The position numbers were made by a program, and so were the translations under genes. Shown piece after piece: positions 181-12,559 of a stretch of DNA of 12,559 bases. The notes beneath the pieces were generated by a model that saw nothing but the letters and a program-made list of their open reading frames with translations, searched no databases and was not told where the DNA came from. The stretch's first letter is position 1. Each line of letters starts with the position of its first letter. Origin of the DNA: a bacterium (lineage in GTDB: Bacteria; Patescibacteria; Microgenomatia; Levybacterales; GWA1-39-11); contig JAKAHW010000015.1 of the NCBI GenBank assembly GCA_021825285.1, forward strand, positions 1 to 12,559, in the 5' to 3' direction.

Positions 181-3100
181 ATGACGGTTGAGTTGACACA
201 CACGAAGCCTTTACCTTATTCTAGAAGTAGGCATATGGAAGCCCAAGGGGAAAATACTGGCAAAACAGAACAAGAGAAACAGGAAGTAGTGGTTCGTCCT
301 GAAGAAATTGAGAGGGCGATGAAAGCTTGGGAAAAATTCAATTCAGAAAGAAAACTTAAAGGAAAAGAGATTACAGAAGATGAAAAACAAGCGCAAAAAG
401 CACTTGCAGAAGCAGGACAATTACCACCGGAGCCAGGTCAAGCGCTACTGAAAGCCGCCGAAGCTGCTCGGATAATTCAAATTGAGGGTGATAAAAAAGA
501 ATTAATAGAACTCTTAGAAAGGATTAAGAAATTAAAAAAAGCAGGGGTTGACGTAACCCCATTTGTTTTACAAGGCAAAAATTTAATTACTCTTCTTTTC
601 TCAATTTCTGATGCCCAACCTTTAATTTCAGAATTTGAATCGGTTTTGACTCCTGAGGAAAAAGCAAAGCAAAGGGAAAATGATCCAAAAACCCAAGCTC
701 CTTTGGAAGTTCAAGAAAAAGCAAGAAGATATTGGTTGGATAAGGTTAGAACAGGTAAATATGAGCCTACGGAAGAAAATCTTGACAATGCAGCATATCT
801 AACAAAAAAGGGTAGAAGCGCAATTGGTGGAGGAGCGGGAATTTTTGGAGAAGACGAAGAAGAGCCGGAAATTGGGTTCCCCGCAAGAGAAGCAGCCGGA
901 AGACCGCAGCCGGATGAAATGACAGAACAAGTAAGGAGTCAGATCGCCGAATCCTATGGAATGTCGACTCCGGATGGAAAGAGGCTCTTTGACGACGTAA
1001 TGATGGTAAGGACAACAAACATGTTTGATTACAATTTTGTAGAAAGAATTAGAAGTCAGGCGCAGGACAATGTTACAGGAGGGCGAATGACTCCTCAGGA
1101 AGCAAGCATAATAAACGGTTTGCTAAATGAAGGAATGGCTATGAGGCAGAAACAAGAAAGTGAGCAAGGAAGAAGAGGCAGAGGTGGGGGAAAGTCGTCG
1201 GCAGCTTTAGAGCAAACATATTTAGACTGCGTCGTCAAAGCAAGGACTAAGTCAATAGAAGAATTAAAAGAAGAAATAGGTGAAGGAGGCGAGATAAGAA
1301 ATTTTTTGAAATCGCTTGAGCCTTTCAGGGAAAAGCCTTTTGAAAAAGAAAATTTAGACCAGTTGTTAGGGATGGCTGATGAGGCACAATTTCGAAAAGG
1401 ACTTGAGGATATTTTAAATACGGAAGGGAATGATGTTATGGCACGTGCTGTTGTTCAGGAAATGGGATTTAGCGCCCCCGCATCAATCCAGGAAATCGCT
1501 TACCAAATTATGGCTTATGAGGGGTCTGAGTTTCGAACCGGAGGAAAGTATCCTATGTTTAAAGTTGTTGTAAAAAGAGATGCTCAAGGACGAGAGAAAC
1601 CTCATTTGGAGTTCCAGCAGCATAATTTTATAAGATGGGCAAGAAACAAAATGATCAATTGGCACGAAAGCAATCCTGACGATCCGGGGGATATGTTTAA
1701 AGTTGTAGGAGTCTTTGGATCTTTAAGGCCTGTAAGCCTTGGGGAAATGATTTATGTTGACGCATTTTTCCGGGATAAAGATACGGGAAAAGTTCTTTCC
1801 GATTTAAGAACGCAGTTAATTTATGAAGCCTGGCCATTTAACTCTTTCAGAAATTTTGATATTGAATACAGAAATATGAAAGGAAGCGACGAAAAACTTC
1901 CTGAAAGTCTTCAGAAGATTTACATGGGAAATGTGGCAACAAAGAAGAATGTCTTAAATAAAGTTTTTAATATGGCAGATATTAGCGAAACATTTGATCC
2001 TTCAGAAAAAAATAGCAGGACCGGACAAGGTCTTCGAATGGCACTTCTTTCTTATTATTATCTTGGAAACTACGAAATGCTTAATAAAATTTTCAAGGAC
2101 CAAAGAGGTGGGGATTTAGCATTTTTAGACTTTAATAAATTTAAAGAGCAATTCATTAAAGGGCATATGGATGAAGATGGGTGGACAAGAGAAAAAGCTG
2201 AAGAAGAATTTAATAAAAACCCAAATTATATAAAAAGACATTTTGGAGGAGACGGGAAATTATTGGATTCACAAAGCAATAAAGAAGATTTTGTCAGGAC
2301 GTCAAATCTTTTTGACAGCGCAATGGTAAATATTCAACAAGTGGAAGAGATCAGGGAGAGAATAAGACTTTCCATAATGGAAAGGTTTGGAATTTCTTAT
2401 AATGACGCCAAGTATGCAGAGAATTTTGCTTACACAATGACCAGGTGGACAGGCATATCATCCCTAAATGATACGAATTCTGTTGGTTTTGACGCCTGGT
2501 CTAAAGTTTTAAATACGGGTTATTATCTTCAGCATCAATCCTCAGACAGGCGCGGAGGAGCTTTTGGAAACAGATACACAATGTTTCAATTTAAAAGACT
2601 AGGAGTAGATTTTTTCACAGGAGTGACAGATGTTAATAAAAAAAGCATTCTTGAATGGATTCAGGGAGGGCAAGGGGGTAATGTTGACTTTAGCCATCCA
2701 TCTGACAGCTTGCTTTTCGGAGAAAACACAATGACCCAGTTTTACGCAAATCACATAAGCAGGACCTTCCAAACTTTTCATTCTTTTGTTGGGTCAAAAG
2801 CACTAAAGCTTAACGAAATAGTTTTTACTGATAGTACGGGATTTGTTCATACCGATCCTGAAAAATTTGACGAGCTTTATAAAGAAGGGTTTTTAAAACC
2901 AATGAGATATGCTTATGCTACTTGGCCCGGAACAGACCTTACAGAGGAAGTTCCCGTTTTTGAAGAAGAAAAATACAAGGATGCAGATGGAAGGATAAGG
3001 ACAAGAATGGTTTGGAAATCACAACCTTTGGCAAGAAGAATGTTTGGGAAAATGATGTTTAACGACATGAGATATTATCTCAATGGGGAATGGGTAGATT

Positions 3101-3681
3101 TTAAATATAGCGAAATGTTAAAGCCAAAAGATGATTTTGTTTCAGAGTTTTATGAAGCAAAAAAAAGATTAAATGGTAATAAATATGAGGGGGAAAACGG
3201 AGCTTACCAAAAGATTCAAGACGAAAGCCTTGTAAATAATCCAGACAATCTAAGGGTATATCAAGAAACTGTAAAAAAAGGAGAATACCAGAATCCTGAA
3301 ACAATAGAATATGCATTTAGGGGACCCGGAAGAGCATATTTTTGGAGGGAAGCGGCAAAAGTAAGGCTTGCGGCGGAAATTAAAGAAGGAAGAAAAAGGG
3401 GAACAATGAGAAAGAGGATGACATTTGAAGAGACAGAAAATTTTATAGCCATACTTGAGCAAATGGATGCTGATATTCAAGGATCAGAAGAAGGGTTTGA
3501 GACAGTCAGGCCAGGGAAAAGGTTTTTTTCACCTGAGGAGATACAGTGGATAAGAAAAAAAGCAGGAGTAAGTTTTTGGAAAATGGCAGGAACTGATGCA
3601 GGCATGGCAATATTAGAAGGGTCGGCTCCAGGATTCTTCCAGGCATTGTGGGCGCTTTTCTCCAATACTTTTAAAAGTTAA
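181..3681 (+). CDS. Giant 1,166-residue protein of unknown function
   Basis: I do not recognise this family. There is no signal peptide and no convincing internal membrane segment, so it is probably cytoplasmic or membrane-associated. Residues about 20-190 are rich in Lys, Glu and Gln and look helical or coiled. A Gly-then-acidic linker (about 215-232) and an RGRGGG linker (about 330-337) separate this from a long C-terminal part (about 345-1150) that is unusually rich in Tyr, Phe and Trp. The last 25 residues are hydrophobic and could be an amphipathic anchor. I see only one cysteine, near residue 349. ATG 181 has no ribosome-binding site; a second in-frame ATG lies at 235 (Met19). The gene is convergent with the VirB6-like gene, so a link to a secretion or surface apparatus is possible but only by neighbourhood. 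Confidence 0.9.
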   Translation: MTVELTHTKPLPYSRSRHMEAQGENTGKTEQEKQEVVVRPEEIERAMKAWEKFNSERKLKGKEITEDEKQAQKALAEAGQLPPEPGQALLKAAEAARIIQIEGDKKELIELLERIKKLKKAGVDVTPFVLQGKNLITLLFSISDAQPLISEFESVLTPEEKAKQRENDPKTQAPLEVQEKARRYWLDKVRTGKYEPTEENLDNAAYLTKKGRSAIGGGAGIFGEDEEEPEIGFPAREAAGRPQPDEMTEQVRSQIAESYGMSTPDGKRLFDDVMMVRTTNMFDYNFVERIRSQAQDNVTGGRMTPQEASIINGLLNEGMAMRQKQESEQGRRGRGGGKSSAALEQTYLDCVVKARTKSIEELKEEIGEGGEIRNFLKSLEPFREKPFEKENLDQLLGMADEAQFRKGLEDILNTEGNDVMARAVVQEMGFSAPASIQEIAYQIMAYEGSEFRTGGKYPMFKVVVKRDAQGREKPHLEFQQHNFIRWARNKMINWHESNPDDPGDMFKVVGVFGSLRPVSLGEMIYVDAFFRDKDTGKVLSDLRTQLIYEAWPFNSFRNFDIEYRNMKGSDEKLPESLQKIYMGNVATKKNVLNKVFNMADISETFDPSEKNSRTGQGLRMALLSYYYLGNYEMLNKIFKDQRGGDLAFLDFNKFKEQFIKGHMDEDGWTREKAEEEFNKNPNYIKRHFGGDGKLLDSQSNKEDFVRTSNLFDSAMVNIQQVEEIRERIRLSIMERFGISYNDAKYAENFAYTMTRWTGISSLNDTNSVGFDAWSKVLNTGYYLQHQSSDRRGGAFGNRYTMFQFKRLGVDFFTGVTDVNKKSILEWIQGGQGGNVDFSHPSDSLLFGENTMTQFYANHISRTFQTFHSFVGSKALKLNEIVFTDSTGFVHTDPEKFDELYKEGFLKPMRYAYATWPGTDLTEEVPVFEEEKYKDADGRIRTRMVWKSQPLARRMFGKMMFNDMRYYLNGEWVDFKYSEMLKPKDDFVSEFYEAKKRLNGNKYEGENGAYQKIQDESLVNNPDNLRVYQETVKKGEYQNPETIEYAFRGPGRAYFWREAAKVRLAAEIKEGRKRGTMRKRMTFEETENFIAILEQMDADIQGSEEGFETVRPGKRFFSPEEIQWIRKKAGVSFWKMAGTDAGMAILEGSAPGFFQALWALFSNTFKS

Positions 3682-5549
3682 GTTCTGGTTTCTTCAGGAG
3701 GAACTGGTTGACCAAGTTGAGCTGCTTCGTTTGCTTCTTGTGCTCGTTGGTTTTGAGCTCTAGCCTGTTCAACTCTTTGCCTTCTTTCTGCTTCTTGTCT
3801 TTGTCTTTCGGCTTGTGCAGTCTGTTCGGGGGTTCTTGCCCTTTCTCTGAGCCAGTTCACGCGACTTCCAACAGCCCTAAGTCCTCTTCCGACAGGTCCA
3901 GGTGTTGCTCCTGGTTGGGGTTGGGTTCTGCTTCTGTAGAAATTTTGTGCAGCCAGTTTTGCGGTATTTCGTATGACTCCTCCTTCACGTTTTCCTGTAA
4001 ACGGATTTTTTCTACCCATCAGACCTCTACCCATAGGAGTAAATAATTGTTGGTTCATTCCTGTCCCCATCTTAAGGGTTGCTCCTACAGCACTTGAATA
4101 CTTTCCTTCGGGAGCTTTTATTGCTGCTCTTACCATAGTTACGACTTGAGGAGTCAACAGTATAATGCCAAGACCTATTAAAGCGCCAAAATTATCGTGG
4201 TCTCCGGGATTTCCGACAAATGGGGGGGTAAATTGACCGCCTGTCCCTTTAGTACCGAATTTTTCAATAAAAATTCTTCCAATCAAAAACATAAAAAGCG
4301 TCGCCGGAAAAGCCGATAAATTCCCTACCATGTCTCTCATCCACATTCCGAAGTTTCTGGTTGAGCCCGGAATTAGCCCTCCTGCTATCCAAAAGGGAGC
4401 AATAACCGTATTAATAAGAATAAAAATGTAGGCTTTAATCAGCTGAAACCAAAGCCTGAAAAGGGCCGTAAGCATAGCCGCGATAATTATAAAGAATGCG
4501 ACAATTCCTCCAACAATTCCTAGCATTTTATCAACTCCGAATCCAAAAAGTCCTCCTGCGACTCCTCCAACAATTCCTCCAACTACATTTCCTACTCCTG
4601 GAACAATTATGCCTGCAACTGCACCAAAAAGCATCCCTCCCAGGGCGCCAATAATTCTTCCATAAATTCCGATGTTAAATAGGTTTGCGATGACTGAACC
4701 TATCCCTACGGAAGCATCTTTTGCGATTCCTGCCCCTCCTAAAAACCCTACTGTGCTAATAGGGTTTGCTCCCTGAATAGTGTTTGGGTTAAGTCCTGAA
4801 ACATCAACGTGAAGAGTAGGAGTGGTAAACAAATTGTATATAAGGTAAAGCATTACATACATCATGTCTATTAAAAATCCGGCAATTGCATAAGAAAAAG
4901 TGACCAACACAAGCGCAATAATTATTTTAGGGATTTGGTTTTGGATAGTCATAACAGTTCTGGGGTCTATTTTTATCCGGAACATTATTCCAAGCCCGAT
5001 TACGACAAAAACAAAAACAAAGAAAAGATATACCACGTTTCTAAAAACCTTCCATAACTCAAGTATTGGAGCTAAACCATCAAATCCTATACCGGTTCCG
5101 ATACTTGCGTTTGGGTCTGGACGGCTTGTTGTCCCCCGATCTTCGGATCCATCCAGTGTTTTTGCATAGCTTTTTTTTGCTACACCAAAATTATTTGCCA
5201 AATCAGAAAAATACTGACCGCTTGAGACAGGAACCTTAAAAGTCATCCCTATCATGTCTCCCATTATTCCTATTAGTCCATGGTTGCCCTCGACGTATCC
5301 AATTTTACCTGTTTTAATGTCAACCCCAAGGCATTTATTTTTTGGATTTATGGGGTCGATTCCTGCTGCTTGACATGAGAGTGCAGATAAAATCTCTATG
5401 AGAACTCCCTGCGAATAAGTATGGAAGTCACGGGGTACATCCGCATTCGTTTTTAACGGATAGTTTGTTGTTTGGGCAAAAACCGAAGTTTTAAATAAAA
5501 AACCAAATGAAGCTACAAAAAATAATAGCAAAAGGAATCTTGCTTTCAT
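3678..5549 (-). CDS. VirB6/TrbL-like polytopic membrane protein with signal peptide
   Basis: This 623-residue protein is probably an inner-membrane channel-like component of a type IV secretion or pilus-related machine; the family call rests on architecture, not a diagnostic motif. Residues 1-25 form a signal peptide ending VFA, before QTTNYP. An exported domain (about 26-165) holds two cysteines (59 and 73) that could pair. Hydrophobic segments follow at about 171-192, 207-240, 341-364, 366-390, 409-429 and 453-474. Residues about 296-338 form a glycine-zipper stretch with repeated GG and VGG motifs. The tail (about 480-623) is soluble: basic first, then Gln/Arg/Glu/Ala-rich and probably coiled coil (about 570-612). 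The start lies just downstream of a TTGACA promoter, with no Shine-Dalgarno site. Its stop overlaps that of the convergent giant gene. Confidence 0.85.
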   Translation of the reverse strand: MKARFLLLLFFVASFGFLFKTSVFAQTTNYPLKTNADVPRDFHTYSQGVLIEILSALSCQAAGIDPINPKNKCLGVDIKTGKIGYVEGNHGLIGIMGDMIGMTFKVPVSSGQYFSDLANNFGVAKKSYAKTLDGSEDRGTTSRPDPNASIGTGIGFDGLAPILELWKVFRNVVYLFFVFVFVVIGLGIMFRIKIDPRTVMTIQNQIPKIIIALVLVTFSYAIAGFLIDMMYVMLYLIYNLFTTPTLHVDVSGLNPNTIQGANPISTVGFLGGAGIAKDASVGIGSVIANLFNIGIYGRIIGALGGMLFGAVAGIIVPGVGNVVGGIVGGVAGGLFGFGVDKMLGIVGGIVAFFIIIAAMLTALFRLWFQLIKAYIFILINTVIAPFWIAGGLIPGSTRNFGMWMRDMVGNLSAFPATLFMFLIGRIFIEKFGTKGTGGQFTPPFVGNPGDHDNFGALIGLGIILLTPQVVTMVRAAIKAPEGKYSSAVGATLKMGTGMNQQLFTPMGRGLMGRKNPFTGKREGGVIRNTAKLAAQNFYRSRTQPQPGATPGPVGRGLRAVGSRVNWLRERARTPEQTAQAERQRQEAERRQRVEQARAQNQRAQEANEAAQLGQPVPPEETRT

Positions 5550-6404: not shown

Positions 6405-6854
6405 ATGCAGTGTCCATATTGTAAAAGTTCAGAAACAGAGGTTGTTGAGACAAGGGTAGCAGAGGAAGGCACAAATATAAGAAGAAGAAGGACCTGCAGT
6501 TCTTGCGGAAAACGCTTTACGACGTACGAAAGAATAGAAAATATTACATTAATAGTAAAGAAAAATGACGGAAGGCGTGAGCAATTTTCCCGCGAGAAAT
6601 TAAGAAGCGGAATAATAAAAGCTTGCGAGAAGACAAAAGTTTCGCTTGAAGAAATAAATAATATAGTAGACGACATTGAGCGGGAGCTTATGACAGGAGA
6701 TTCGGTCGAAATTGAGGGAAAAAAGATTGGGCAAATGACAGCGGTCAGGCTAAAAAAAGCCGACAAAGTAGCCTACATAAGATTCGCAAGTGTGTTTAAG
6801 AGGTTTGTGGACGTTGAAGATTTTGAAAAAGAGCTAAAGAGGCTTATTAATTAG
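6405..6854 (+). CDS. nrdR: NrdR, transcriptional repressor of ribonucleotide reductase genes
   Basis: NrdR binds ATP or dATP and represses ribonucleotide reductase genes when deoxynucleotides are plentiful. The 149-residue length is typical. A zinc ribbon is formed by Cys3, Cys6, Cys31 and Cys34, and the basic IRRRRTC stretch before the second pair is the usual DNA-contact region. The ATP-cone domain follows from about residue 49 (VKKNDGRREQFSREKLRSGI) to 139. The start sits 14 bp after a strong NrdR box, so the gene is probably autoregulated. No Shine-Dalgarno site is visible. nrdJ begins 28 bp downstream with no terminator between them, so the repressor and its main target appear to be one transcript. 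Confidence 0.97.
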   Translation: MQCPYCKSSETEVVETRVAEEGTNIRRRRTCSSCGKRFTTYERIENITLIVKKNDGRREQFSREKLRSGIIKACEKTKVSLEEINNIVDDIERELMTGDSVEIEGKKIGQMTAVRLKKADKVAYIRFASVFKRFVDVEDFEKELKRLIN

Positions 6855-6882: not shown

Positions 6883-9339
6883 ATGAAAATTACAGGACTT
6901 TCCGAGAAAGTATTTTTAGATAGATATTCTTTAAAAGATAAAAAAGGTACCCCCGTAGAAAAAAACCCCGAGCAAATGTGGAAAAGGGTTGCGAAGGCTG
7001 TAGCGCAACTTGAAAAAAAAGAAGATCAAAAGAAATGGGAGAAAGAATTCTACAACTCTTTGACCGGATTTAAATACGTTCCGGGAGGAAGAATTTTAGC
7101 AGGCGCAGGAACTGGGTTTGCCGTTACCTATTATAATTGCTTTGTCATCCCAAGTCCCAAAGATTCCCGGGAAGGAATTCTTGATACTTTAAAACAGATG
7201 GTTGAGATTATGGCTCGAGGTGGAGGAGTAGGCATTAACCTTTCCTCATTAAGGCCTCGTGGGAATCGGGTAGAGAAGGTAAATGGTTTTTCTTCGGGCC
7301 CATGTAATTGGGCTGAGCTGTTTTCAGTTGCAACAAAAGACATAATTCAACAAGGCGGAACAAGACGCGGCGCATTAATGCTTATGCTTTGGGATTGGCA
7401 TCCGGATATTGAAGAATTTATAACCGTTAAGCAAGACTTATCCCGTATTAACGGAGCCAATTTATCGGTTTGTGTCTCCGATTCCTTTATGGAAGCAGTT
7501 GAGAAAGATGGAGATTGGGAATTAATTTTTCCTGATAAAAAAGACCCTGAATACGACACGGTTTGGGACGGAGACATATATCGCTGGAAGGAATTGGGCA
7601 AAAAAGTAATAGTTCAAAAACGAGTTCGCGCAAGAGCTCTTTGGGATTTAATTGCAGAAGCCGCTTGGAAGTCTGCCGAGCCCGGAGTTGTTTTTATGGA
7701 GCGCTACAACAAATGGCACAACAACTGGTATTGGAACAGGATTAATTGCGTAAATCCTTGCGGAGAGGAAGGTCTTCCTGCATGGGGAGTATGCAACCTG
7801 GGGTCAATTAATCTATCGGCATTAGTCAAAGGCGGCGATATAGATAGAAAAGGCACTTTTGATTTTAATAGTTTAAAAAAGGTTGTTCGTGCGGCAGTAC
7901 GGTTTCAGGATAATGTTGTTGAGATGGATCCTTACGTTTTTGAAGGGATTAGGGAGACTCAATACGAAGGAGAGAGAAGAATTGGACTTGGAACAATGGG
8001 ACTTGGGGATGCTCTTATCAAACTTCACATGAGATATGGGTCTTCGGCATCTTTGAAATTTATCGAAAAAGTCTACAAAACCATAAGAGACGAAGCTTAT
8101 CGAGCATCGGTGCAGGTAGCTCGTGAGAAAGGTTCATTTAAAAAATTTGATCCTGAACTTTTTCCAAAAGGAAAATTCATAGAAGCACTTCCAAAAGATA
8201 TCCAGGAAGATATTAAAAAATTCGGAATCAGGAATTCGGTAATTTTGATGCAGGCGCCGACAGGCTCGACTTCCTTAATGGCAAATACAACTTCAGGAAT
8301 TGAACCGGTTTACGAATTCGAGTTTACCCGTCGAGACAGAATTGGAGAGCACGTTATAAGACACTATCTTTATGAGCAATGGTTTAAAAAACATGAAGCG
8401 GAGGTTGCTTCCGGAAAATTAACAAGACCTGATTATTTTGTTTCAGCAAACGATCTTTCTCCTGAAGATCATGTGACTGTCCAGGGACTAATCCAAAAAT
8501 ACGTTGATGCTTCCATTTCAAAGACAGTTAATGCTCCAAAAACCCATACGGTTGAGGATGTAAAAAGACTTTATACTCTCGCTTATAAGCTTGGTTGTAA
8601 AGGAATTGCATATATGAGGGAAGGTTCCCGACAAGGAGTTTTAGAAAGAACCGAGCCGAAAAAAGAGGAAAAAGCCGAAGTTCCAAAACCGGCTCATGCA
8701 ATAAGCAAGCGCCCGACAGTGATGTTTGGCCTTACCTACAAGACACAGACTCCTTTGGGAGATGCATTTATAACTCTTAATAAGGATGATCAGGGAAATC
8801 CTTTTGAAGCGTTTGTTACGATTGGAAAATCAGGGTCAGATGTAGCTGCTATGACGGATGCTTTAGGAAGAATGATCTCTTTGATTCTTCGTCTTCAAAG
8901 TCCGGTTGAATCCCGTGAAAGAATTAGGCAAATTGTCGCCCAGCTTTCCGGAATCGGAGGAATGAGGACTGTCGGATTTGGAGAAAATCGGGTGCGTTCC
9001 GTTCCAGATGCAGTCGCAAAGGTACTGGCTGAAGAATTTGAGTTTGCCGTAAACGGAGTAGTGAAGGATCTTCATAAAAATGGGGTTGTACAGGGAGCGC
9101 CAAATGGGAAAACAAATGGTTTGACAAACGGACACTCTACCATGACAAATGGTCATGTTGTTGCTGATTCTGTTTCTTCAGCACAACAAGACAAGGTAGT
9201 TCTTGAGCAATTAAGCATTTCTTCCTCTGAGCCTTCGACGTCTGCAATGTTTGATTTGTGCCCCTCTTGCGGAGGAGCAAGCCTTGCCCACGAAGAAGGA
9301 TGTAAAAAGTGCTACGCCTGTGGTTATTCCGAGTGTTAA
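6883..9339 (+). CDS. nrdJ: Class II (adenosylcobalamin-dependent) ribonucleotide reductase
   Basis: NrdJ reduces ribonucleotides to deoxyribonucleotides using a thiyl radical generated with adenosylcobalamin, with no oxygen or second subunit needed. The active-site set is present: Asn291, radical Cys293 and Glu295 in NPCGE, with Cys86 and Cys304 placed as the reducible pair. The LMQAPTGSTS loop (about 455-464) is also conserved. Residues about 608-725 resemble the TSCPD-type C-terminal domain. An Asn/Gly/Thr-rich linker (about 740-760, repeated NG) leads to a cysteine tail with Cys793, 796, 807, 810, 813 and 818, probably a zinc ribbon plus the redox shuttle. The 818 residues begin directly at the catalytic core: no N-terminal ATP cone is present, so dATP overall inhibition is probably missing. 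The start has no Shine-Dalgarno site. No other reductase is visible. Confidence 0.97.
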   Translation: MKITGLSEKVFLDRYSLKDKKGTPVEKNPEQMWKRVAKAVAQLEKKEDQKKWEKEFYNSLTGFKYVPGGRILAGAGTGFAVTYYNCFVIPSPKDSREGILDTLKQMVEIMARGGGVGINLSSLRPRGNRVEKVNGFSSGPCNWAELFSVATKDIIQQGGTRRGALMLMLWDWHPDIEEFITVKQDLSRINGANLSVCVSDSFMEAVEKDGDWELIFPDKKDPEYDTVWDGDIYRWKELGKKVIVQKRVRARALWDLIAEAAWKSAEPGVVFMERYNKWHNNWYWNRINCVNPCGEEGLPAWGVCNLGSINLSALVKGGDIDRKGTFDFNSLKKVVRAAVRFQDNVVEMDPYVFEGIRETQYEGERRIGLGTMGLGDALIKLHMRYGSSASLKFIEKVYKTIRDEAYRASVQVAREKGSFKKFDPELFPKGKFIEALPKDIQEDIKKFGIRNSVILMQAPTGSTSLMANTTSGIEPVYEFEFTRRDRIGEHVIRHYLYEQWFKKHEAEVASGKLTRPDYFVSANDLSPEDHVTVQGLIQKYVDASISKTVNAPKTHTVEDVKRLYTLAYKLGCKGIAYMREGSRQGVLERTEPKKEEKAEVPKPAHAISKRPTVMFGLTYKTQTPLGDAFITLNKDDQGNPFEAFVTIGKSGSDVAAMTDALGRMISLILRLQSPVESRERIRQIVAQLSGIGGMRTVGFGENRVRSVPDAVAKVLAEEFEFAVNGVVKDLHKNGVVQGAPNGKTNGLTNGHSTMTNGHVVADSVSSAQQDKVVLEQLSISSSEPSTSAMFDLCPSCGGASLAHEEGCKKCYACGYSEC

Positions 9340-9344
9340 TTTGG

Positions 9345-9515
9345 AAGAATCCAGGCGCATGAATGAAGTGAATACTAGCGCTTTTGGAGATTAGTTTTCG
9401 ATTTTAAGTATATATTTGGAAATCGCCGTGAAAGTCGGCGGAACTGCCGGTACTGTTAAATCCAGAAAACAAATATATATTGTCCCCGTCTAAGGCGGGG
9501 AGCCCGAGCAGGCCA
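9345..9515 (+). promoter_or_regulatory. Probable cobalamin (AdoCbl) riboswitch
   Basis: A 10-bp perfect helix, TATATATTTG (9409-9418) with CAAATATATA (9470-9479), encloses a core starting GGAAATCGCCGTGAAAGTCG and ending in ACTGCCGGTACTGTTAA. This closely follows the conserved GGUG-AA-UCC and GCUGCC...CAACUGUAA elements of cobalamin riboswitches. Inside, CGCCG (9424-9428) pairs with CGGCG (9436-9440). Downstream come a CCCCG/CGGGG hairpin (9484-9500) and AGCCCGAGCAGGCCA (9501-9515), a variant of the B12 box. The 5' boundary and outer helices are not resolved. The next gene encodes the enzyme that makes adenosylcobalamin, which independently supports the call. It most likely acts by transcription attenuation through the adjacent terminator. 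Confidence 0.8.
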
Positions 9516-9523
9516 ATTTTGTA

Positions 9524-9549
9524 CCTCTCGGCAACGAGAGGTTTTTTTT
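9524..9549 (+). terminator. Intrinsic terminator controlled by the riboswitch
   Basis: A perfect 7-bp stem, CCTCTCG (9524-9530) with CGAGAGG (9535-9541), is closed by a GCAA tetraloop and followed by eight T residues. It ends 10 bp before the adenosyltransferase ATG, so termination here would shut off the downstream operon. It may also end nrdJ read-through transcripts. I did not identify the competing antiterminator with confidence. Confidence 0.9.
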
Positions 9550-9559
9550 GAGAAAAAAT

Positions 9560-10093
9560 ATGGCTATTTATACAAAAACAGGAGACAGGGGTAAAACATC
9601 TTTATTTACAGGGGAAAGGATTTATAAAGACAGCTTGAGGACTGATGCCTACGGAACAATAGATGAATTAAACGCTTCTATCGGTGTCTCAATTTCATTT
9701 ATAAAAAACAAAAAGATAATAAAGCTGCTTTTAGAAATTCAAAGCACATTATTTTATATAGGTTCCTACCTTGCCGGGAATACCTCCTTGGTAAATGAGG
9801 CGAATCTTGAGGAAAAAACAAAAGTTTTAGAAAAAAAAATTGATGAGATGACCGTGAAAATGCCAAAGTTAAAAAATTTTATTCTGCCAGGAGGTGGAAA
9901 GGGTGGAGCTCAACTGCATCTGGCAAGAACAATAGCCAGGCGCGCGGAGAGAAAACTCGTTTCTTTATCAAGGAAAGAAGAGCTAGAGCCGGAGGCTATT
10001 AAATATATTAACCGTTTATCAGACTTTCTGTTTACAGCAGCGCGTTTTTTAAACCATTTAGAGAAAAGAAAAGATTTTGTTTGGAAAAGATGA
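9560..10093 (+). CDS. PduO-type cob(I)alamin adenosyltransferase
   Basis: The enzyme transfers the adenosyl group of ATP to cob(I)alamin, giving adenosylcobalamin, the cofactor of the NrdJ encoded just upstream. Starting at ATG 9560 the product has 177 residues, usual for the family. The N-terminal ATP-binding motif reads YTKTGDRGKTSLFTG (residues 4-18), followed by AYGTIDELNASIG. Further on are ILPGGGKGGAQLHLARTIAR and RRAERK, then YINRLSDFLFTAARFLNH, all characteristic. A TTG at 9548 lies in frame but inside and just after the terminator T-tract, so ATG is preferred. Its TGA overlaps the next ATG (ATGA), which indicates translational coupling. Expression is probably repressed when adenosylcobalamin is abundant. 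Confidence 0.96.
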   Translation: MAIYTKTGDRGKTSLFTGERIYKDSLRTDAYGTIDELNASIGVSISFIKNKKIIKLLLEIQSTLFYIGSYLAGNTSLVNEANLEEKTKVLEKKIDEMTVKMPKLKNFILPGGGKGGAQLHLARTIARRAERKLVSLSRKEELEPEAIKYINRLSDFLFTAARFLNHLEKRKDFVWKR

Positions 10094-10998
10094 ATACAAC
10101 AGTAGAATCGCCAAGAATTGAGATTCAAAATGGCTTCAACCCTTTATATTCCGAAGTGCCAAGAGCGGTAGGTTCTTTTGATAAATTTTATAAGCTTGAA
10201 GGAACAGGTTTTAATGTTCCGCTTCAGGTAAATCAATTATCAAATGATCTCAAGACGGGTTTACGCGAAGGAAGAAGGTTCAATGATGTATATGAAGGTG
10301 CATTTCAAAAAATAGAGCAGGATATTCAAGGTTTTAAAACAGAATACCTTTGCGAGGGACTGCTTTTTCCAATTGTTTTGGATAAAAAGGTAGTAGATGG
10401 GCAAGAAAGAATTGTTTGTCCTCTTTATAACGACAAATTATTGGTAGATACGACTACTGAACAAGAAAGGCATGGCTCTGTTAAAAACTCATTAATAAAT
10501 GTAGAAAAATTTCTTCTTCAAGCTTCTCCCGGATCTGTTGCTGTTATGTCCTCGCCTGAAGGGTGGAGCGGTTTTAATGGAATTAATTACGAAGATTCCC
10601 AGACTTATATTTGGCAGGTTCAAAAAGATGGGCGAGTGAGAGGTTTCACAGTTAGAACAGATATGACTTTGGAAGAAAACAAGCGACTTTTAATTGCTTT
10701 GGGAGTTGATGAGGAGAAATTAAGGGGAGAAACCGAACGAGAAAAAATTGTTAATATTGTTTCAAATCCTATATTTCTTGATGCAAGAAAAAACGGGAAA
10801 AATTGGGAAATAGAGGACGTGGTAGGCGTAATAAAGTACGTAAAAGGGTCAGATGTTGCTTATAAAAATAAGGAGTTTAGTCAAATTTATGAAAGTTTAA
10901 AAAACCCCGAGCACCTTTGGACTTTGGATGAAACAACAAAGAGTCTAACAGATAATCTTAAGGATTATATTAGGATGAAGTTTTGGGAGGAAGCATAA
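10090..10998 (+). CDS. Unknown 302-residue protein in the B12 riboswitch operon
   Basis: I recognise no family. The protein is soluble, with no signal peptide or membrane segment, and has two cysteines (88 and 110). Its most pattern-like part is about residues 146-180: SPGSVAVMSSPEGWSG, then NYEDSQTYIWQVQKDGR, alternating short hydrophobic strands that suggest a compact mixed fold. The C-terminal third is charged and helical. ATG 10090 overlaps the adenosyltransferase stop by four bases and is preferred to an in-frame TTG at 10081. The gene's end overlaps the next reading frame by 16 bp. This packing puts it under the same riboswitch, suggesting a link to cobalamin or nucleotide metabolism, but co-transcription in a compact genome is weak evidence of function. 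Confidence 0.88.
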   Translation: MNTTVESPRIEIQNGFNPLYSEVPRAVGSFDKFYKLEGTGFNVPLQVNQLSNDLKTGLREGRRFNDVYEGAFQKIEQDIQGFKTEYLCEGLLFPIVLDKKVVDGQERIVCPLYNDKLLVDTTTEQERHGSVKNSLINVEKFLLQASPGSVAVMSSPEGWSGFNGINYEDSQTYIWQVQKDGRVRGFTVRTDMTLEENKRLLIALGVDEEKLRGETEREKIVNIVSNPIFLDARKNGKNWEIEDVVGVIKYVKGSDVAYKNKEFSQIYESLKNPEHLWTLDETTKSLTDNLKDYIRMKFWEEA

Positions 10999-11363
10999 AA
11001 AGGGAAGAGGTTGAGGCAGCACTAGGATTAACAGTCTTAAAGCTTGCTCAAAAAATAAGAGGAAAAGATGCAAAGGAAGATAAATATCAAAAAATTGTTC
11101 CAAATACAATTAATTATGCTACTTTTGGGAAAATACTTGCCGAAATAAGGTCTTTGCCGGGATGCAATGGGGGAGGAAAGAAGTTCTTAACAATTGTTGA
11201 CTCTGTCACCCCAAGGCTTGCTTCAACGCCCTGGGAGCAGGAGTGGTTTAAGTGCCCAAAATGTGGTGTCCAGGCAGATGGTCCTGTGGGTGATTCTTGT
11301 CCAAGCTGTAAAATTACTAAAGAACAGTTTTCGGCAGAATCCGGCCAGGAGACTTGTGATTAA
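10983..11363 (+). CDS. Zinc-ribbon protein of unknown function, uncertain start
   Basis: The frame encodes up to 126 residues. The first 60 are basic and helical. A GCNGGGKK segment follows (about 60-67), and the C-terminal part carries CPKC (91-94) and CPSC (106-109), 11 residues apart, a likely rubredoxin-like zinc ribbon. Two further cysteines are at 61 and 125. The start is a problem: no ATG or GTG occurs in frame and the protein has no internal Met. The only usual candidate is TTG 10983, inside the upstream gene. A GGGAGG (10985-10990) lies four bases before an in-frame ATA (10995). The frame is -1 relative to the preceding gene, so it could also be the C-terminal half of one interrupted protein. 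Its stop overlaps the next ATG (TAATG). Confidence 0.75.
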   Translation: MGGSIKREEVEAALGLTVLKLAQKIRGKDAKEDKYQKIVPNTINYATFGKILAEIRSLPGCNGGGKKFLTIVDSVTPRLASTPWEQEWFKCPKCGVQADGPVGDSCPSCKITKEQFSAESGQETCD

Positions 11364-12363: not shown

Positions 12364-12559
12364 GGGGATGCATTGCATCGACAAGAATAGCTCTTTTAAA
12401 ACTGCAAGCCGACAACTGATATCAAAGTCGTTAAAACGGTATCAAAAATAAATGCTGATAGTAATGTCAGTCGTCCAACTTACGCAGGTGCGTTCGCATT
12501 TGCTTAACTAAGACTGTTTATGTCACACTCCAATCTTAGCGGAAAGACATAGGCATAAA
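12364..12559 (+). ncRNA. ssrA: tmRNA (5' part; 3' end beyond the window)
   Basis: tmRNA rescues stalled ribosomes and tags unfinished proteins for degradation. The likely mature 5' end is GGGGATG (12364), followed by CATTGCATCGACAAG, the TLD-domain start. CTGCAAGCCGA (12402-12412) matches the conserved segment before pseudoknot 1. That pseudoknot is visible: CGAC (12410-12413) with GTCG (12427-12430), interleaved with GATATC (12418-12423) and GGTATC (12438-12443). The tag frame runs from GCT 12454 to TAA 12505-12507 and reads ADSNVSRPTYAGAFAFA. The tag's end folds into helix H5 (12484-12491 with 12496-12503). A second pseudoknot follows: CTAAGA (12508) with TCTTAG (12534), interleaved with TATGTC (12519) and GACATA (12546). 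The rest, including the tRNA-like 3' end, lies outside. A short 5' leader of about 25 nt would be removed, presumably by RNase P. Confidence 0.93.

Follow-up and report, generated by a model that had tools for sequence, protein, structure and literature searches.

A predicted class-II cobalamin riboswitch between nrdJ and cobA in a CPR-type genome, and an uncharacterised gene family behind its relatives

Genes of the locus

We analysed a 12,559-nucleotide stretch of bacterial DNA, hereafter the window, in which nrdR and nrdJ are followed on the same strand by an RNA element, a cobalamin adenosyltransferase gene (for which cobA is the short name used here) and a gene of a family without recognised domain, called X. 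The genes are as follows.

6405..6854, + strand: nrdR repressor gene (Pfam Zn_ribbon_NrdR and ATP-cone)
6883..9339, + strand: nrdJ, ribonucleotide reductase (Ribonuc_red_lgC, E 1.6e-127, and a TSCPD domain)
9560..10093, + strand: cobA, cobalamin adenosyltransferase (Cob_adeno_trans, PF01923; Pfam E 1.2e-57)
10090..10998, + strand: family X, N-terminal part, 302-aa protein P0141; its start and the stop of cobA overlap as ATGA
10983..11363, + strand: family X, C-terminal part in another frame, with a zinc-ribbon-like tail; 79% identical to residues 297-420 of P0134

A preliminary description of this DNA had placed a riboswitch and a terminator between nrdJ and the adenosyltransferase gene, and the domain matches agree with it, with the NrdJ barrel domain within 6883-9339 and Cob_adeno_trans within 9560-10093. 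Judged from its context, nrdJ would encode a B12-dependent class II reductase. X, the gene next after cobA, is split by a frame change near position 10980, which may be a sequencing error or the sign of a pseudogene; its full-length relatives P0134 and P0135 have 420 and 424 aa. Named relatives of the adenosyltransferase include Levybacteria and those of X include Curtissbacteria, both of which are Microgenomates-type CPR lineages; the window has the look of a genome of this type. Elsewhere in the window, two large genes at 181-3681 (1166 aa) and 3678-5549 (623 aa) lack a Pfam match, the second showing long hydrophobic stretches by eye, and at 12364-12559 there is a partial tmRNA match, truncated where the window stops, which scores 25.5 bits (E 4.4e-7) and so stays below the cut-off of 47.

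The aptamer belongs to the AdoCbl-II family

The preliminary description had noticed a cobalamin-riboswitch-like core and proposed a search with covariance models. With Rfam release 15, that search returned AdoCbl-II (RF01689) on the forward strand at 9401-9480 with 44.7 bits (E 3.3e-8 over the window), above the curated gathering cut-off of 36.5 bits, and the match spans the full model (1-81 of 81). The scan listed no second cobalamin-clan match in the window at E <=5; the class-I models RF00174 and RF01482 were likewise absent from the window at this E-value, and no overlapping clan match was noted as omitted. The aptamer comprises the following parts.

9401..9480, + strand: AdoCbl-II (class-II cobalamin) riboswitch aptamer, RF01689 (Rfam, 44.7 bits against 36.5)
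9407..9481, + strand: aptamer closing helix, 9407-9418 with 9470-9481 (minimum-energy fold; sequence)
9424..9440, + strand: P4 hairpin, CGCCG 9424-9428 with CGGCG 9436-9440 (Rfam alignment; compensated variation in 52 relatives)
9445..9449, + strand: L5, UGCCG (position; kept or compensated in relatives)
9453..9465, + strand: P6 hairpin, CUG 9453-9455 with CAG 9463-9465 (Rfam alignment; relatives)

The 5' outer helices, previously called unclear, resolve in the fold into the one helix 9407-9418/9470-9481, which is consistent with a compact class-II aptamer. This closing helix is present in the unconstrained fold of the window, where the interior is unlike the Rfam core. The strand 9405-9549 folds more stably than 200 of 200 dinucleotide shuffles (z -3.65). 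The suggestion that the element might be a new or divergent cobalamin subclass has to be dropped, as the curated threshold of a named class is passed; the element is a member of the known family RF01689, not a new class. An anti-hemB match at 9483-9550 was also rejected (25.7 bits against a cut-off of 49.5), as it tracks GC hairpins and the U-run. Judged by its sequence, the RNA appears to be a true vitamin-B12 sensor and to belong to a compact class already described.

A proposed kissing loop, a predicted antiterminator and a terminator in the expression platform

Downstream of the aptamer, folding and terminator scoring delineated four features.

9483..9501, + strand: spacer hairpin between aptamer and P13 (folds; -11.0 kcal/mol for 9481-9500)
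9502..9513, + strand: P13-L13 hairpin, GCC 9502-9504 with GGC 9511-9513, loop CGAGCA 9505-9510 (-2.5 kcal/mol alone; relatives)
9502..9532, + strand: antiterminator, CCGAG 9504-9508 with CUCGG 9527-9531 and AGG 9510-9512 with CCU 9524-9526 (duplex; stepwise folding)
9523..9549, + strand: intrinsic terminator, stem 9523-9530/9535-9542 with GCAA loop, U-run 9543-9549 (folds; terminator scoring)

The motif AGCCCGAGCAGGCC, described earlier as a B12-box variant, is present in the window, but it contains the P13 hairpin and is the P13-L13 hairpin of the expression platform. The loop of this hairpin, CGAGCA, is complementary to L5 (UGCCG) when its A is bulged (C-G, G-C, G-C, C-G, A-U), and, as far as sequence can tell, the window element could form a kissing loop from L5 in the aptamer to L13 in the expression platform. 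The GCAA-loop terminator reported 10 bp before the adenosyltransferase start was confirmed: its stem occupies 9523-9542 and its U-run, seven U ending at 9549, stops 10 nt upstream of the ATG at 9560. It is the sole terminator-like site in 9150-9700, a region for which shuffled sequences gave a mean of 0.4.

The terminator has a predicted energy of -13.8 kcal/mol (9520-9550) and the antiterminator one of -10.0 kcal/mol (9500-9534). In stepwise folding, the antiterminator was dominant for transcripts ending at 9532-9538, where it displaced P13, while from 9541 onward the terminator formed and P13 reappeared; a fold of 9401-9536, from which the terminator 3' arm is mostly absent, also yielded the antiterminator. 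According to the predicted folds and duplexes, antiterminator and terminator are mutually exclusive and P13 is compatible with the terminator. At equilibrium the terminator prevails in these folds even without ligand, so that the switch must be kinetic.

Because the antiterminator competes with both P13 and the terminator, the arrangement is a repressing design. Corrinoid riboswitches that activate do exist (PMC10653944), and an ON switch resembling that of A. halodurans cobT would have P13 and the terminator exclude each other, with ligand blocking termination. We give this reading very little credence, since P13 and the terminator of the window use separate sequence, are able to coexist in the window fold and share the antiterminator as a competitor.

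The fit between L13 and the terminator arm was examined in 45 elements, the window among them, in which a terminator had been scored downstream of L13. Duplexes of L13 with its own terminator arm had a mean energy of -12.4 kcal/mol against -9.7 kcal/mol (sd 0.33) with arms exchanged, and 0 of 2000 permutations were as good, a count made optimistic by shared ancestry. The window duplex, at -12.3 kcal/mol and with unpaired bases, ranked 26th of the 45; 11 duplexes were weaker than the permuted mean, and two barely pair (-2.8 and -2.4).

We consider it probable that the class-II cobalamin riboswitch is an OFF switch that controls cobA and the overlapping X by transcription termination. Cofactor binding would let L5 (UGCCG) dock on L13 (CG(A)GCA) and hold the weak P13 hairpin; the antiterminator would then be blocked, the 5' arm of the terminator would stay free, and the terminator would form in time to leave cobA and the overlapping X untranscribed. 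With no cofactor, the emerging terminator 5' arm would invade P13-L13 to give the antiterminator, which would persist long enough for RNA polymerase to pass, so that transcription would continue. The switch thus probably halts transcription of a B12-processing gene and its uncharacterised neighbour when the cofactor is plentiful. A search for sigma-70-like promoters, the type covered by the method, found none in 9150-9700, and the switch may therefore attenuate read-through from nrdRJ. What the sequence itself shows is the aptamer match, the P13-L13 hairpin, a complement able to form the antiterminator, the terminator and the order nrdR-nrdJ-riboswitch-cobA-X.

The position of the hairpin between two same-strand genes would also suit an ordinary terminator of the nrdRJ operon, with cobA under its own promoter and the aptamer a decaying relic. 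That is a very improbable account of the locus: the U-run is separated from the ATG by just 10 nt, with no sigma-70-like promoter in 9150-9700, P13-L13 is complementary to the terminator arm of the same transcript, and the aptamer helices and P13 vary with compensation across relatives, as described next.

Occurrence and covariation in relatives

A scan of genome contigs retained 80 loci, of which 13 were taken as CPR (12 by name, plus L001), and the RNA-family scan covered these 13. RF01689 was above cut-off at 3 of the 13 loci and in 4 of their 13 genomes. In the taxonomic class of G003, one of these four, it exceeded the cut-off in 102 of 373 genomes (186 at E <=1e-3), as against 1 of 14 control genomes (4 at E <=1e-3); in the class of G013 the counts were 5 and 20 of 191. 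The resulting element set numbers 109, from 105 genome labels: 106 over cut-off from the 373-genome class, the window, L083 (over cut-off, from outside the 373-genome draw) and L085 (36.0 bits, slightly below cut-off). Two over-cut-off AdoCbl-II elements occur in tandem in G379 (L108/L128; contig 97, 2239-2311 and 2378-2470), 66 nt apart and before one reading frame. G044 likewise has a pair of over-cut-off elements, spanning about 1.1 kb, and in G009 a stretch of 0.8 kb holds two that stay below cut-off.

Covariation, another check put forward in the preliminary description, gave a positive outcome: pairing of P4, P6 and P13 is conserved in relatives, along with a matching antiterminator. Across 52 relatives (window excluded), 97.9% of P4, P6 and P13 cells were paired, against 68.9% in shuffles and 33-57% in slid alignments; as these rows were preselected for a P13 of >=3 bp, the P13 percentage holds by construction, while the variety of its pair types does not. 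P4 was paired in 95.4% of cells and P6 in 100%, with changes on both sides, and cells altered on both sides numbered 175 against 45.6 in shuffles. Further pair types (23 against 25.9) were the 1 of 5 measures not above shuffles. Among the 88 elements with CGAGCA, for which no P13 preselection was applied, 79 have a P13 of >=3 bp, with many different stems.

In 91 of 108 elements (the 109 minus one without L5), P13 closes an L13 that can pair with the L5 of the same element, against 41 of 2160 shuffled segments. Compensating variants include AGCCG-CGAGCU (L159), UACCG-CGAGU(C)A (L179, L198) and UCGCG-CGCG(GA)A (L147); in L190 (UCUCG/CGAAGA) and L132 (GGCCG/CGAGCC) the letters match and the strict stem test failed. 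Some of the 17 elements that missed the strict test reflect the pattern misreading L5 (e.g. L122, L150, L154, L165), and among the passes at least L157 is false, its L5 having been misread and its match being due to chance.

Genes and platforms behind class-II elements

A usable first gene was available for 107 of the 109 elements, and single-linkage BLAST clustering assigned 60 of these genes to family X and 15 to cobA (window included), the remainder being 13 short proteins, a pair and 17 others. X is thus the commonest first gene behind RF01689 elements in these ultra-small bacteria, ahead of cobA, and cobA was rejected as the general target, with just 15 of 107 first genes. A Pfam search of 50 first genes (47 from outside the X cluster and 3 from inside) matched Cob_adeno_trans in 15 rows, DUF4430 in 12 and DUF6580 in 2.

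All 15 cobA-first elements (window included) have nrdJ upstream on the same strand; in the full set of 109, whose flank lengths differ, nrdJ was seen at a distance of up to 1.5 kb upstream for 58. In 32 of the 109, cobA precedes the riboswitch by <=800 nt and is therefore not led by that element; X is the first gene in 22 of the 32. Behind the cobA-first elements, a listed X follows within 3 kb in 12 of 14 relatives; the contigs of G359 and G354 stop short of that distance. The row nrdJ-cobA-X is therefore often kept, with the riboswitch before or after cobA. The earlier proposal of feedback on adenosylation is in this light incomplete as a regulon, given 60 of 107 first genes in X and 32 of 109 elements with cobA upstream.

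Several smaller groups were also seen. The 13 short proteins have a hydrophobic start (L081, L107, L111, L121, L126, L134, L138, L143, L147, L171, L175, L193, L200), and 12 rows of their cluster match DUF4430; the pair L199 and L204 presumably holds the two DUF6580 matches. Perhaps the DUF4430-type cluster and the DUF6580 pair are B12 uptake genes of the same regulon. Two further first-gene clusters, with six (L118, L134, L174, L179, L181, L198) and four members (L115, L129, L184, L194), have no clear Pfam family and are possibly divergent X or other B12 genes.

By script, a terminator follows L13 in 13 of 15 cobA elements against 12 of 60 X elements; 35 of the 60 X elements are of translation type, with L13 <=18 nt from the start codon and no scored terminator, and 13 fall in neither group. 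It therefore seems that one kind of L13 can work with a transcriptional as well as with a translational platform. These X-type elements, together with the env8HyCbl riboswitch, which is reported as translational (PMC10653944), lend some colour to the idea that the window aptamer is real and its decision translational, with L13 docking masking the ribosome-binding site and the hairpin and U-run incidental. We think this very improbable for the window, where L13 ends 49 nt before the ATG with a strong terminator in between whose 5' arm fits its own L13, and where the element belongs to the cobA group, 13 of whose 15 members have a scored terminator after L13 (the terminators of L159 and L162 being read by eye). 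Transcription termination remains our preferred reading.

Family X is tied to B12 riboswitches and to NrdJ

A profile, A2, was built from 56 of the 60 X-cluster proteins and the two window pieces, with L108, L122, L128 and L169 omitted. In the class of G003 it detected X in 209 of 373 genomes at E 1e-3 and in 168 at E 1e-10. In the other class (191 genomes), all 26 listed X matches, from 24 genomes, start at position 247 or later, with E 3.7e-6 or weaker. We abandoned counting all X hits at E <=1e-3 and preferred the stricter count because these weak matches cover only the zinc-ribbon end.

NrdJ (TIGR02504 at E 1e-30) is present in 302 of the 373 genomes, and in 160 of the 168 with X at E 1e-10 (odds ratio 8.9, Fisher p 4e-11, uncorrected for ancestry); 142 of the 302 NrdJ genomes are without X at this threshold. 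CobA, present in 131 of the 168, showed a weaker association (odds ratio 2.0, p 0.003). With X counted at E 1e-3, NrdJ occurred in 192 of 209 X genomes (odds ratio 5.5), and the CobA-X association was not significant in the 373-genome class (p 0.14). Some NrdJ matches lie in open frames of about 1300-1850 codons, and a single genome can have several NrdJ matches (e.g. G079, G170, G115, G061), which suggests inteins, fusions or extra copies.

Positions of X and RF01689 were taken from the best 150 matches listed for each. A listed RF01689 precedes 85 of the 150 listed X genes on the same strand, at up to 450 nt in 69 cases and up to 3 kb in 16, and none of the 150 has a listed RF01689 on its far side within 450 nt. 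Genes behind RF01689 served to define X, so that part of its association with RF01689 is built in; 54 of the 85 are in the profile, and the fair set consists of the 96 listed X genes outside it, 31 of which have RF01689. We scanned the upstream DNA of the other 65, using Rfam on 60 and our own model R1, whose E-values are rough, on all 65. RF00174, the class-I cobalamin riboswitch, was over cut-off in 28; 12 had sub-threshold cobalamin-clan matches (3 of them RF01689), nine had an R1 match alone at E <=1e-5 and four a weaker R1 match. The remaining 12 had no counted match, and six of these have <300 bases of upstream DNA. All counted riboswitch matches are on the X strand. Altogether, 80 of the 96 fair-set X genes are preceded by a B12-riboswitch match of class I or class II, the weakest R1 group being left out.

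That riboswitches of two classes stand before one gene family, in different genomes, speaks for a B12 function of X. Structure prediction gave X a high-confidence core, for which solved structures offered no convincing counterpart. We infer that the protein serves B12 acquisition, B12 processing or the support of NrdJ at times of cofactor scarcity; it would likely act in the processing of cobalamin ahead of adenosylation, in corrinoid handling or in NrdJ support. It would be expressed under cofactor scarcity, and its gene is often kept beside cobA and nrdJ. We lean towards the view that X is a part, so far undescribed, of the way in which Microgenomates-type CPR bacteria manage B12, perhaps a missing factor for cobalamin processing, cobalamin handling or NrdJ maintenance.

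Significance and comparison with known systems

These results carry a class tabulated as marine over to CPR bacteria, here joined to a terminator platform readable from sequence. In the open-access literature we found no account of RF01689 in CPR bacteria, which is weak evidence as subscription papers mostly fall outside it. The survey singles out an uncharacterised family whose expression is seemingly set by B12, in a reduced-genome group with few cultured members, and X offers a testable entry into how CPR cells supply class-II ribonucleotide reductase.

Among known cobalamin riboswitches, env8HyCbl belongs to class II and the P. megaterium metE corrinoid riboswitch to class I. The window element resembles RF01689 as known in its whole-model match, its compact aptamer and the lack of a listed class-I match in the window. 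A table in Weinberg et al. 2010 (PMC2864571) gives the taxa of RF01689, also called AdoCbl-variant, as "Marine"; the window element differs in lying in a CPR-type genome, where the class is common (102 of 373), in having a transcription terminator and in standing upstream of cobA-X.

The env8HyCbl riboswitch is described in PMC10653944 as translational, with a kissing loop containing a mismatch and a bulge. The window RNA would share with it a kissing loop of L5 and L13 in which L13 carries a bulge, but is followed by a terminator. For P. megaterium metE, PMC10653944 reports that the logic of P13 and antiterminator was demonstrated by mutants. The predicted window switch is like metE in that the kissing loop would stabilise P13, unbound P13 would pair with the terminator 5' arm and ligand would repress. 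It differs in aptamer class and in the make-up of the antiterminator, which in metE comes from the 3' side of P13, whereas in the window loop bases and both sides of P13 contribute.
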